The translations under genes and the position numbers were made by a program. A DNA stretch of 64,000 nucleotides from Cystobacter fuscus (GTDB lineage Bacteria > Myxococcota > Myxococcia > Myxococcales > Myxococcaceae), in NCBI RefSeq assembly GCF_002305875.1, contig NZ_CP022098.1:9114001-9178000 (forward strand), written 5' to 3'. The stretch's first letter is position 1, and each line of letters starts with the position of its first letter. Positions 57,440 through 64,000 of the stretch are shown piece by piece. The notes beneath the pieces are model-generated. The model had not been told where the DNA came from, did not search any database, and saw only the letters and a program-made list of their open reading frames with translations.

Positions 57440-58027
57440 CTATGCCCGCAGCAGCTCGTCCAGGCGGGCCTGGACCGTGGTGTCGACGGGCGAGCCTTCA
57501 CTGAGCGCGCTCACCACCGCGCCATCCAGGACGGCGAGCACCAGTTGGGGACTGGGGAGGCGTGTACCGCCGGGCAGGGCGGCCGCGATGAGCTCCGCCA
57601 GCGCCTCGTCGAGGTCCGCGCGTCCCCGGGCGAGCACCGCCGAGAAGGCCGCCCGGCGCCCGCACGCCACCAACAGCTCGTAGTGGGCCTGGATGGCGCC
57701 AGGACCTCCGGACGGGAGCATCGCCTGGGTCACCCACCGGGCCAGGTCCGCCTTCTCCGGGTGCGCCCGAGCGAGCCGCGTGGTGCGACGGACCTGCTCC
57801 ACCCACTGGCGCAGCATCTCCGCGAGGGTCTCGGCGATCAGCTCCTCCAGGGAGGAGAAGTAATAGGTGACGGCGGCGAGGGGCACCTCGGCCGCGTCCG
57901 CGACGGAGCGGGCACTCACGGCCTGGAGGCCCCCCGTCCGCAGCACGTGCGTGACGCCCTCGATGAGCCGCGCCCTCCGCTGCCGCCCCCGCTCCTGGCT
58001 CGTCCCCCGTGGGCCCGGGGGTGACAT
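57440..58027 (-). CDS. TetR-family regulator of the Gdx transporter operon
   Basis: A 195-residue TetR-type repressor. The N-terminal HTH is RRARLIEGVTHVLRTGG, LQAVSARSVADAAEVPLAAVTYYFSSLEELI, where the YYFxSxEELI motif is the family signature. The C-terminal ligand domain is helical. Its ATG overlaps the stop of the transporter gene (ATGA), so it is second in a two-gene operon and probably represses it from the palindrome at 58365. Confidence 0.92.
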   Translation of the reverse strand: MSPPGPRGTSQERGRQRRARLIEGVTHVLRTGGLQAVSARSVADAAEVPLAAVTYYFSSLEELIAETLAEMLRQWVEQVRRTTRLARAHPEKADLARWVTQAMLPSGGPGAIQAHYELLVACGRRAAFSAVLARGRADLDEALAELIAAALPGGTRLPSPQLVLAVLDGAVVSALSEGSPVDTTVQARLDELLRA

Positions 58028-58350
58028 CAGTGGCCGCCCCCGGACAGGGCGAGTCCGATGACACCGATGACGATGAACCCGATGGAGGCAAGCTTCACCC
58101 CGGACACCGACTCGCCGAACAGGAGGATGCCGAGCACGGCGGTCAGCGCCGCACCGATGCCCGTCCACACGGCGTAGGAGGGCCCCGCCGGCAGGGACTT
58201 CATCGCCCAGGCCAGACCCCCGAAGCTCATCGCCGCCAACACCAGGAACACCACGCTGGGCACCGGCTGGGTGAAGCCCTCGGACTTCTTGAGCGCGAGC
58301 GCCCACCCACTCTCCAGCACCCCCGAGACCATCAGAACGAACCAGGCCAT
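58027..58350 (-). CDS. sugE: SMR-family exporter of the Gdx/SugE subtype
   Basis: A 107-residue four-helix membrane protein. The essential Glu13 lies in SGVLESGWALALKKSEGFT. Helix 3 has the AVWTGIGAALTAVLGILLFGES signature, which marks the Gdx (SugE) subtype rather than the Qac subtype. Characterised Gdx proteins export guanidinium in antiport with protons as antiparallel homodimers. First gene of an operon with a TetR regulator. Confidence 0.93.
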   Translation of the reverse strand: MAWFVLMVSGVLESGWALALKKSEGFTQPVPSVVFLVLAAMSFGGLAWAMKSLPAGPSYAVWTGIGAALTAVLGILLFGESVSGVKLASIGFIVIGVIGLALSGGGH

Positions 58351-58451: not shown

Positions 58452-59039
58452 TCAGCGCTCGCCTTCGTCGACGATCGCCTGGATCGCGGCCTCCAACCAG
58501 CGACGGGTGGAGGAGTGGCGCACCTCGGCGAGCTGTGGGAGGGGCAACAGCCGCCAGCTCATGAGAAAGCCGTTCCAGAGGATGTTGAGCCGCGCCGCGC
58601 GCCCCTCGGCATCCGGGGGACCCAGCCAGCGAGCCAGGGGCTCGATCGCCTTCTTGTGGAGCAGCTCGACACTCGTCGCGTGCGCCTCGGGATCGGCCGC
58701 CGAGAGGATCAGCATCATCAGTGGGCCCGGGGAATCCTGCACGCCGAGGAAGATGGACACCACGTTCTCGCCGAAGCGGCGCCTGTCTCCCTGAAGCATC
58801 GGGGTGATGTCGAGCACCTGCTCCAACGTCTCCCGGTACAGCCCCTGCTTCGAGCCGAAGTAGCGATTGACGAGCGAGGAGTTCACCCCGGCCAGCTCCG
58901 CCACATCCCGCACTCCAGTGTTGGCGAAGCCCCGCGTGGAGAACAGCGTCTGCGCGGCGGAGAGCAGGGCGGCACGCGTGCGATCGGCGTCTCGCTGCCG
59001 CGTCGACGTCTTGGGGTCGCTCGGTCGGGATGTGTACAC
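58452..59039 (-). CDS. TetR-family regulator divergent from the monooxygenase
   Basis: A 195-residue TetR repressor: the HTH is [59 protein letters not shown], and the C-terminal domain resembles the TetR_C_17-type ([14 protein letters not shown]). GTG start with a weak upstream site. It is divergent from the Baeyer-Villiger monooxygenase gene; the 94-base gap holds inverted and direct repeats (59038-59100) that are likely its operator. Confidence 0.9.
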
Positions 59040-59076
59040 GGCTGTTTACTTACGATAGGGATTGCGTTATGTCCAG

Positions 59077-59100
59077 CGATGTAAACGGCTGATTACATCG
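59077..59100 (+). promoter_or_regulatory. Candidate operator between the TetR and monooxygenase genes
   Basis: CGATGTAA-ACGGCTGA-TTACATCG is a perfect inverted repeat with eight-base arms, 33 bases before the monooxygenase ATG. A partial copy of its centre, ACGGCTGTTTAC, lies at 59038-59049, overlapping the TetR start codon (compare ACGGCTGATTAC at 59085-59096). The arrangement suits a TetR dimer repressing both divergent genes. Confidence 0.65.
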
Positions 59101-59133
59101 AGAGCGGCTGCCGAGCCGAAAGGACGTGTGCGG

Positions 59134-60947
<1,814 letters not shown>

Positions 60948-60951
<4 letters not shown>

Positions 60952-62612
60952 GAGCCTCCATGTCCCGATTCCTCTCCAAGTCCCTGGCCGCCTGTCTGTT
61001 GATGGCGGGTGGTCAGGTCCTGGCCGCCCCTCCCAAGACCTACCGCCAGGAAGTGGTGGTGGCCGGCTCCCACTTCCAGGGCGTCCACGGGCTCGTCGTG
61101 GATGGCAAGGGGCACCTGCTGGCCAGCAACCTGCTCGGCCGGACGGTCCACTCCGTCGACCTGGGCACGGGCGCGGTGAGCACCCTGGTGGGGCCGCCGC
61201 TGGGCGGCGCGGATGACGTGACCCTGGGTCCCGACGGCTCGGTCTACTGGACGGGCTTCTTCACCGGCGAGTTGATGCGGCGCACCCCGGATGGAAAGAC
61301 GCGCGTCATCGCCAGGAATCTGCCGGGCCTCAACTCGCTGGCCTTCCGCCGCGATGGCCGGTTCTACGTCACCCAGCTCGGCCGGGGCGATGATGCGCTG
61401 TGGGAGGTGGACCCGAGCGGGAAGAAGCCGCCTCGGCTGGCCATCGCCAGGCCCGGCTTCCTCAACGGCTTCGAGTTCGGCCCGGACGACAAGCTCTACG
61501 GCCCGATCCTGCTCAAGGGGCAGATTGCCCGGGTGGACGTGGACACGGGCAGCATCGAGGCCGTGGCGGAGGGCTTCGCGATGCCGGTCGCCGTCAATTT
61601 CGACGCGCGCCGCGAGAACCTCTACGTGGTCGACTCGGCGCGGGGCGAGCTGGTGCGCGTCCGGCTGCCCACGGGCGCCAAGGAGGTCGTCGCGAAGCTG
61701 CCCACCGGGCTCGACAACCTGGCCGTGGGCCCGGATGACCTCGTGTACGTGTCCAACATGGTCGACAACGACATCCGCGTGGTCAATCCCGCCGATGGTT
61801 CCGTCCGGCTCCTGGTCGAGTCGCGCCTGGCCGTGCCCTCCGGCCTCGCCGTCGCCCCGGATGATCCGGAGGAGCAGCTGTACGTGGCGGACGTGTATGC
61901 CCTGCGCCGGGTGGGCGGGCGCGATGGGAAGATCACCCAGACGACCCGCGTCCTCTCCTCCCCGCTCAACTTCCCCATGAACGTGAGCCTGAGCGCGAAG
62001 CATGTGGTGCTGAGCACGGCCTACCTGGGGGACCGGAGCAGCGTGCAGGTGCTGGATCGGACCACGGGAGACATCCTGCGGACGATTCCCAACGCGAATG
62101 GCGTCCAGGCCGCGCTCGAGCTCGCCGATGGCACGCTGCTCGTCGCCGAGGCCACCACGGGCCGGCTCGTCCGGGTGGACACCGCCGAGCCCGCGGGGAC
62201 CACGGTGCTCGCCGAGGGCCTGGAGGGACCGGTGGGTCTCGCGGCCGACACGGAGGCGGAGGAGCCGGGGGTGTACGTCACCGAGGTGCGCTCGGGGAAG
62301 GTGACCCGGGTGCGCCTGTCGGATGGCGCCAGGCGCACGGTGGCCAAGGGCCTCAAGGCCCCCGAGGGCATCGCCCGGCATCCGGACGGCGGGCTGATCG
62401 TCGCCGAGGTGGGCCGCAAGCGGTTGGTGCGCATCGAGCCGGCCACGGGCCGACTGAGCGTCATCGCGAGCGGCCTGCGCATCGGTGTGCCCGAGAGCGC
62501 GGGCCTGCCGCCGGGCTACCTCCCCACGGGGGTGGCGGTAGGCGGCTCGGGAACCATCTACCTGACGTCCGACATCGAGAGCGCCCTCTACCGCTTCGTC
62601 CCGGTGCCCTGA
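60948..62612 (+). CDS. Exported NHL/SMP-30-like beta-propeller protein
   Basis: A 554-residue protein with an N-terminal signal peptide (ending about QVLA-APP), then repeated segments in the pattern [63 protein letters not shown] and [21 protein letters not shown], spaced about 45 residues. This is a six- or more-bladed propeller of the SMP-30/gluconolactonase or NHL type. No lactonase metal set was verified. ATG 60948 overlaps the monooxygenase stop (ATGA); 60960 is possible. If a lactonase, it could open the BVMO's lactone products, an inference only. Confidence 0.8.
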
Positions 62613-62690: not shown

Positions 62691-64000
62691 CTACTCGTAC
62701 TGACGCCGCTGCATCATCAGCAGGGCGCACAGCTCGAAGGCCGTGTCGATGCGCTCCATGCGGTAGAGCTCCTTGGAGATCCAGCACTTCACCTTGCCCT
62801 CGGCCGGGGCGCCGGGGGTGTAGTTCTGCAGCATCCACCGCGAGGCCCGATCCAACGCCGGGGAGATGCCGTGGTGGTGCAGGCCATGGCGCTCCAGGAA
62901 ACCGAGCATCAGCACGGCGTAGGAGGTCTCCGTCATGTTCGAGCGGCCATCGGAGCTCCAGCCCCCGTCCGGGAGCTGCGCGGAGAGCACCGACTCCAGC
63001 GCGCGGCGCACCGCGTCCGTGTGCGGCGAGCCGACGAGGCCGACCACCGAGTGGAACGTGGTGTACAGCCACGAGCGGCTCCACTTGTCGAAGGACCAGC
63101 GGCCACTGGGCTCCTGGCGCTCGAGCAGGTAGCGCTGGAAGGGGGCCAGCTCGTCGCTGTCCTGGCCCAGCAACATCAGGGCATGGAGGCAACGGGCCGT
63201 CAGCGTCGGCGAGGACTGCATCTCTCCCGGGTAGGCGATGAAGTGGTCGTCCCGCTTGAAGCGGTAGAGCACCGCCGGATCCACCGGAAGACCCATGGCG
63301 TGCATGACGGCCACCACCGCGCTCGTGTCGTCACCGTCCTGGAGGAAGTAGTCGCTCATGCCGATGCCGTTCGGCCCGAGCGCCCGGGTCAGATCCCCCA
63401 GCACGGAGTTCACGTAGGGCGCCAGACGCGGCTCCTGCAGCACCCCGCCCATGAGCAGGGCATAGAGGACGAAGGACTGCTCGAAGTAGTTGTGCGGCCC
63501 GCCCACCGGCACGAGTCCGGGAGTGGACGACGCGGTCGACAGCCCGCTCTCGCGCAGGTACTCCCGGGCGCGATCGACGAACGGCGTCAGCTCCGGCCGG
63601 CCCGAGGCGGCCTTCACCCATGCCGCCGTCGCGGACGGGCTGTGCCCCACGCTCCCCGCCCCATCGATCAGGTTCGCCGTGGGCTCCTGGCCCCAGGTCT
63701 CCCAGACGTGCAGCCACGGCACGCCGGGCGTCACGGGCAGCTTCGCGATGATCTTCCGCTTGCGCTCCCCCAGCGCCATCAGCTGCGCGTAGGGCGTGCG
63801 CGGCAGTTGCGCCTCGCCCAGCCCGAGCTGATTCAACAACGCGGGCACGAGGATCTCCGCGGCCACCGGCAGCTCCTCCGGATGCAGCGTGGCCCAGTGC
63901 GGCGCCTGGGCGCGCAGGAAGCGCACCCCCGCCTCACAGGCCTCGTGCGTGCGCGGGTGCTGGGGAAAGCGGCGCAACGCGAGGATGGCGGACATCGTGG
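62691..64000 (-). CDS. Class II terpene cyclase (squalene-hopene or diterpene cyclase type), N-terminus outside the window
   Basis: The visible 436 residues form the C-terminal part of a class II cyclase; the frame is open through the right edge, where sequence like TMSAILALRRFPQHP and the later LPVAAEILVPALLNQL match a region well inside the family, so at least 60-150 residues are missing. The acid DxDD motif is DGDD in LQDGDDTSAV (63327-63338), and the domain contains QW-type repeats QEPSGRWSFDKW and QLPDGGWSSDG. It would protonate and cyclise a polyprenyl substrate (squalene-like or geranylgeranyl diphosphate). The Met at 63995 is almost certainly internal. Confidence 0.88.
   Translation of the reverse strand, partial: TMSAILALRRFPQHPRTHEACEAGVRFLRAQAPHWATLHPEELPVAAEILVPALLNQLGLGEAQLPRTPYAQLMALGERKRKIIAKLPVTPGVPWLHVWETWGQEPTANLIDGAGSVGHSPSATAAWVKAASGRPELTPFVDRAREYLRESGLSTASSTPGLVPVGGPHNYFEQSFVLYALLMGGVLQEPRLAPYVNSVLGDLTRALGPNGIGMSDYFLQDGDDTSAVVAVMHAMGLPVDPAVLYRFKRDDHFIAYPGEMQSSPTLTARCLHALMLLGQDSDELAPFQRYLLERQEPSGRWSFDKWSRSWLYTTFHSVVGLVGSPHTDAVRRALESVLSAQLPDGGWSSDGRSNMTETSYAVLMLGFLERHGLHHHGISPALDRASRWMLQNYTPGAPAEGKVKCWISKELYRMERIDTAFELCALLMMQRRQYE

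Follow-up and report, generated by a model that had tools for sequence, protein, structure and literature searches.

In the window, the 64,000-nucleotide stretch of Cystobacter fuscus DNA analysed here, the region between a TetR-family regulator gene (tetR) and a divergently transcribed BVMO gene reads, from its sequence and that of related loci, as a conserved two-operator TetR switch, a member of a familiar type. Comparison among myxobacteria shows one 18-bp palindrome in two copies, spaced 46 or 47 bp and tied to this TetR. We consider it highly probable that these copies make up an autoregulated TetR control region in which two operators, O1 and O2, flank one shared face-to-face promoter region, with TetR on O1 repressing both genes, TetR on O2 repressing the BVMO operon only, and a ligand releasing the repressor. 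The most interesting features are a probable small shared regulon and a set of orphan modules, which keep both sites next to no tetR gene.

The sequence-only reading of this DNA had described an inverted repeat with eight-base arms, CGATGTAA-acggctga-TTACATCG (59077-59100), and a copy of its central part, ACGGCTGtTTAC (59038-59049, 11/12 identical), between the divergent genes, and both are present as described. Their extents needed redrawing: the palindrome is real, with the outer CGA/TCG of the eight-base arms falling outside the widely conserved motif, and the copy is equally real but its left edge at 59038 cuts O1, because the copy belongs to a larger site that begins at 59033. Over this longer stretch, TGTACACGGCTGTTTAC at 59033-59049 matches 59080-59096 at 15 of 17 positions and represents a second full site. 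The operator type shared by O1 and O2 is 18 bp long, TGTAcACnnnnGTgTACA, the unit redrawn from relatives being TGTAcAC-nnnn-GTgTACA (18 bp), and the two centres lie 47 bp apart (Table 1). Taken alone, the inverted repeat is weak evidence, because the window has many perfect 8-bp-arm repeats (75 with loops of 0-20, six with a loop of exactly 8); in dinucleotide shuffles of the 94-bp intergenic stretch, such a repeat is present in 0.96% of 5000. The 15/17 direct repeat was reached in 2 of 1000 shuffles of 59020-59133, and when the motif from relatives was scored over the 64 kb, only O1 and O2 reached at least 13/14 and no site in the window scored 12/14. The strong evidence for putative operators is their conservation among relatives rather than the inverted repeat itself.

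Table 1. Positions of the putative operators, predicted promoter elements and neighbouring genes in the window
Feature	Positions	Strand	Remarks
Putative operator O1	59033-59050		TGTACACGGCTGTTTACT; spans the tetR start codon and the predicted tetR -10 / BVMO -35
Putative operator O2	59080-59097		TGTAAACGGCTGATTACA; spans the predicted BVMO transcription start
Predicted BVMO -35, TTTACT	59045-59050	+	inside O1; predicted from conservation and 17-bp spacing in 24/28 modules
Predicted BVMO -10, TATGTC	59068-59073	+	predicted from the conserved block TTATGTCCA
Predicted tetR -35, TGGACA	59070-59075	-	predicted; exact in 18/24 tetR modules
Predicted tetR -10, TAAGTA	59047-59052	-	7 nt before GTG; predicted from hexamer and gap in 22/24 loci
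tetR	58452-59039	-	195 aa; GTG start at 59037-59039, inside O1; TetR_N + TetR_C_16
BVMO Shine-Dalgarno-like GAAAGGA	59118-59124	+	read from sequence; in many aligned leaders
Type I BVMO-like flavin monooxygenase	59134-60951	+	605 aa; FMO-like + Pyr_redox
SMP-30/gluconolactonase-like beta-propeller protein	60948-62612	+	SGL E 3.8e-16

Between the operators, conserved columns form a left block, TTTACTTA, and a right block, TTATGTCCA, around a more variable middle. On the plus strand the pattern TTTACY-N17-TA[TC]RT is found at a spacer of 17 in 24 of 28 modules and at 18 in one, with none of the 28 matching at the other nine spacers within 12-22, and on the minus strand 7 nt separate the end of TGGACA-N17-TAAGTA from the tetR start codon. 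These blocks look like face-to-face overlapping promoters, the -35 of each lying over the -10 of the other; the assignment is a prediction because a consensus scan of 58900-59200 gave no sigma-70 match, nor was a terminator found in that interval. The exact TGGACA occurs in 18 of 24 tetR modules (17 of them at the same distance) versus one of four orphans, a difference only suggestive of tetR -35 loss in the latter (p 0.08). Orphan L096 has lost the tetR -35 and has TATATG as the other -10, which fits the face-to-face promoter reading. By eye, no Shine-Dalgarno sequence precedes the tetR GTG in the 20 O1-bearing loci, and the tetR mRNA is probably leaderless, which would set its GTG start inside tetR's own operator. 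All 20 O1-bearing tetR genes start with GTG followed by TAC and all four tetR genes without O1 start with ATG, an association that amounts to two independent events at most. The likely overlapping promoters and leaderless start, like the further genomic modules described below, were absent from the sequence-only reading.

With the promoters placed in this way, a TetR dimer on O1 would cover the tetR -10, start site and start codon together with the BVMO -35 and would repress both genes. A dimer on O2, which lies over the predicted BVMO start site and upstream of the predicted tetR -35, would add a further lock, confined to the BVMO-lactonase-like operon. Because of these predicted overlaps, O1 occupancy should silence both genes and O2 occupancy BVMO only, and it is from position that we infer the dual control of tetR and BVMO by TetR on O1 and O2 that the earlier reading had proposed. 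A ligand, which at a guess could be the BVMO's ketone substrate or a product, would then free TetR and turn on the enzymes and the repressor together.

For the comparison, 98 relatives were searched, and 19 TetR loci, all full-length and with an identity of 60% or more, were recovered from 15 genomes; a named-genome scan contributed five myxobacterial loci (Polyangium L104, L106, L109 and L110; Myxococcus xanthus L108), making 24 myxobacterial tetR loci, with those of Sphingomonas (L111) and Comamonadaceae (L113) kept separate. Duplicates were counted once (L103 = L010, L105 = L011, L107 = L013), and loci holding only tetR pieces (L016, L017, L035, L036, L037, L112, L114) or matching the DNA-binding part only (L115-L117) were left out. 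The gene facing tetR is a BVMO in 19 of the 24 loci, Coq4-like in two (L007, L033), none of the searched enzyme genes in two (L031, L032) and a gene with no assigned identity in one (L015). O2 scores at least 12/14 in all 24 tetR loci (three at 12/14), O1 at least 13/14 in 20, and the pair is intact (both at least 13/14) in 20, including four Polyangium genomes, all of these being counts over related loci and hence not independent. Among loci that keep the TetR-BVMO pair, where an unconserved repeat would have spoken against the sequence-only reading, O2 is retained in 19 of 19 and O1 in 16 of 19, so the repeat is conserved, and the view that two dimer-sized palindromes, one over the regulator's GTG, lie between the divergent TetR and BVMO genes is supported. 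O1 was lost with tetR kept in one Myxococcus-type lineage (L009, L011, L108) and in one paralogue (L015).

The spacing of the sites is constrained too: among 24 two-site modules (20 with tetR, four without), the centres lie 47 bp apart in 15 and 46 bp apart in the other nine. A paired pattern with its gap left free between 20 and 36 (17 values) gave 19 matches in 14 of 58 family genomes and none in the control; all 19 have a gap of 28 or 29, which corresponds to centres 46 or 47 bp apart, and all 14 genomes carry a TetR of the present type. The O2 of the window, one of the most diverged, does not fit this strict pattern: its right arm is degenerate (GATTACA), which is why the module is missing from the 19 matches. 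At the level of genomes, a site with at most two mismatches is found in 8/8 that have a full-length TetR ortholog versus 3/51 that lack one (59 genomes; Fisher 7e-8, relatedness uncorrected), and single off-module places with at most one mismatch number 11 in the 58 family genomes. Outside the myxobacteria, Sphingomonas montanisoli (L111) has just one site of this type, located between a divergent TetR (53%) and BVMO (64%), and since only one site is kept there, the two-site form may be a myxobacterial elaboration. The more distant TetR of L113 (38%) has no site and no BVMO within its 8.5 kb. In L012 (G051), O2 is tandemly duplicated, with a third site 29 bp beyond it, and L036/L114 show a tetR remnant beside an SGL gene tail, as if a module had been deleted.

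A rigid distance between sites could also point to cooperative assembly. In Mycobacterium tuberculosis, EthR-EthA and rv0077c-rv0078 are described as divergent pairs of a TetR-family repressor and a BVMO with a common intergenic promoter region, and EthR is reported there as a homo-octamer on the operator between ethR and ethA (PMC5403819). TetR dimers polymerising over O1, spacer and O2 as one long operator would likewise keep the spacing fixed, but we regard such an EthR-like oligomer as improbable. The usual module contains only two palindromes (the third site of L012 being the exception), and pairwise identity drops to 0.61 at the spacer centre versus 0.93-0.99 in the arms, values that come from the 24 modules, out of 28, in which both sites score 13/14 or better, and that are inflated by this choice of good pairs. 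Moreover, at about 4.4-4.5 helical turns, 46-47 bp puts the dimers on opposite faces, so that simple side-by-side contact is disfavoured, and the 17-bp promoter spacers may be all that keeps the spacing rigid. The region resembles EthR-EthA in that a TetR-family gene diverges from a BVMO gene (19/24 tetR loci), and it differs from the homo-octamer reported for EthR in presenting two discrete sites that are, judging from their sequence, of dimer size.

A scan of the source genome for further copies, as the sequence-only reading had suggested, uncovered three paired modules. In the 12.35-Mb genome, five places lie within one mismatch of TGTAMACNGYNGTKTACA, all of them in these modules, and the sixth module site has two mismatches; the many weaker matches are noise, because at up to three mismatches 107 forward matches compare with 45 for the reversed control. 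At G000:C1:7317437-7318073 (L031, L100) the genome encodes a 70% identical TetR paralogue with both operators kept, and the third module, at G000:C1:10415366-10415429 (L091), precedes a second BVMO-SDR-Coq4-like set; it has a MarR-type gene upstream and no tetR next to it. The second TetR and the two further paired modules suggest a shared regulon, and TetR and its 70% identical paralogue probably share the three paired modules of this genome. None of the searched enzyme genes was found beside L031 or L032, though tetR and both sites are kept at each; recent loss could be an alternative account of their persistence, and in the L031 genome what remains of the leader continues into DNA readable as a convergent gene.

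Four orphan modules carry both sites with no adjacent tetR: two (L091, L092) precede a second BVMO followed by SDR and Coq4-like genes, one (L096) a Coq4-like gene and one (L134) a BVMO. Orphan modules were found via their sites and the two-site count among them is partly selected; the three BVMO orphans were also recovered by an enzyme-led control. Between L091 and L092, ungapped identity is 37.5% over the 40 bases left of O1, as compared with 100% for O1 and O2. Beyond these diverged bases the left flanks share a 55-base stretch (94.5%), whose end lies 112 and 159 bases from O1, so the flanks have undergone rearrangement, not mutation alone. Since orphans and enzyme-less tetR modules alike keep both sites, both seem to matter to whichever gene remains. 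The enzyme-led control covered 24 BVMO genes (E 1e-100 or better) in the 15 genomes with a full-length TetR. The 14 BVMO genes beside tetR all have O2, and 12 of them also O1; the 10 without an adjacent tetR have both sites in three cases (L151, L158, L155), one site in none and neither in seven (hypergeometric 120/346104 = 3.5e-4). Among the seven is a third BVMO gene of the source genome (G000:C1:4100408-4102222, L157), 84% identical, with no operator and no adjacent tetR; six BVMO genes in relatives share this site-less form, so the regulon does not take in every BVMO. Among Coq4-like genes (45 matches, 30 with loci examined), both sites occur in three loci, two of these beside tetR, and no site in 27. 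The operator, on the evidence of these controls, tracks tetR and a few scattered genes, not the enzyme family.

These counts also bear on the idea that only O2 is an operator, O1 resembling it through a chance overlap of start codon, -10 and -35, which we judge slightly less probable still than cooperative assembly. The right arm of O1 does read GTTTACT in 23 of 24 pairs, off the palindrome and as promoter elements demand, and two lineages have lost O1 with O2 retained. However, all 24 paired modules, including tetR-less ones that need no start codon, have exactly TGTACAC as the left arm, an arm that a promoter does not require, and all 20 O1-bearing tetR genes use GTG then TAC; nor does any of the 10 BVMO genes without tetR show O2 alone. 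Least probable by some way, despite four paired modules without a neighbouring tetR and the MarR-type gene upstream of L091, is that the repeats serve another regulator or form RNA hairpins in the BVMO leader, given that O1 lies in the promoter and outside that leader, that TetR is present in each of the 14 genomes with the paired pattern and that Sphingomonas places its single site beside the same TetR-BVMO pair.

Beyond the two-operator switch itself, we tentatively consider a broader possibility, which on balance we doubt: that the two-operator, two-promoter segment is a portable myxobacterial cassette, selectively kept after loss of the repressor or enzyme gene, with near-identical reading heads of paralogous repressors jointly running scattered BVMO, SDR and Coq4-like modules and with a leaderless start codon built into its own operator. 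This proposal is weakened by the seven of 10 BVMO genes without tetR that have no sites. A possible further regulon member is a GFO/IDH/MocA oxidoreductase gene, the same gene being preceded in two species, at different distances, by single sites of the same type (L093:5190-5207, L097:6101-6118).

The closest known parallel to the arrangement of sites is Tn10 tetR-tetA, where a TetR-family dimer controls divergent genes with overlapping promoters, including its own, from O1 and O2 between them (PMC4788846). As in Tn10 tet, a regulator and its target diverge around two copies of one operator-like site; the present region departs from it in operator sequence, in the 46-47 bp between the copies, in the position of O1 over the start codon of the regulator, in having a BVMO operon as target where Tn10 has a pump, and in the existence of paired modules that no regulator adjoins. 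By analogy, the region would work like the Tn10 tet and EthR-EthA systems, with the question of EthR orthology left aside. Among the literature matches listed, as represented by titles and abstract starts, no paper describing the present region was recognised; PMC9257966 reports that C6-AHL upregulates a TetR-family gene in two myxobacteria, in passages that do not equate it with the present tetR. Through the comparison, a myxobacterial BVMO family gains a well-supported operator sequence and a predicted regulon of small size, together with a compact sensor module with which the inducing ketone or lactone could be sought, and the modules that lack regulator or enzyme and keep both operators are natural experiments on the need for two sites.

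The protein predicted to read these sites has an N-terminal helix-turn-helix domain (TetR_N, PF00440, E 2.7e-14) and a C-terminal TetR_C_16 domain (E 2.1e-15), both above cut-off, and its predicted structure is all-helical and TetR-like (mean pLDDT 77.8), with a weaker C-terminal part. The helix-turn-helix region is highly conserved in 19 aligned TetR proteins, that of L015 being the most divergent. TetR-family chains appear among the 50 fold matches listed for the model; we also considered the fold as a guide to ligand class, but the matches listed spread over HlyIIR, EthR2, FadR, RutR and other regulators with mostly tied Z scores (10.6-11.9), so no ligand is suggested. EthR itself is absent among these 50, which carries no weight either way. 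In sequence comparison with Rv0078 (EthR2), only the N-terminal, DNA-binding part of the present TetR_C_16-type regulator is matched.

Type I BVMOs are recognised by the fingerprint FxGxxxHxxxW[PD] between two Rossmann motifs, and the BVMO translation contains the 12-residue fingerprint with GGGFGG before it and GTGATS after it, which places it in Type I. Its best NCBIfam match is PtlE (779.8 bits, under the cut-off of 1100 for that model). The BVMO stop overlaps the SGL-like gene by 4 bp and the two genes probably form one operon; an SGL-like gene follows BVMO in 16 of 19 TetR-BVMO loci (11/14 and 5/5 in two locus sets), and an SMP-30/gluconolactonase-like protein would be a sensible partner for an ester- or lactone-making enzyme. 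The mymA operon of M. tuberculosis likewise combines a BVMO with esterase and SDR partners, and SDR-, esterase-, SGL- and Coq4-like genes are recurrent around the present modules; gene order and partners differ, as does the type of regulator, which for mymA is VirS.

Convergent with the BVMO operon, positions 62691-64000 of the window hold a squalene-hopene-cyclase-like gene that might supply a terpenoid substrate; such a gene adjoins the operon in L076, and an SDR gene intervenes in L077. On the other side of the regulator, a second TetR-like gene (TetR_C_31; 57440-58350) lies on the same strand directly after a gene for a SugE-like small multidrug-resistance transporter, which it perhaps overlaps. 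Finally, the palindrome ATGTACGCGGCCATGTACAT recurs in six scanned genomes; the source-genome copy (G000:C1:3689788-3689807, L095:4788-4807) sits inside a long open frame, and its recurrence may reflect coding conservation only.
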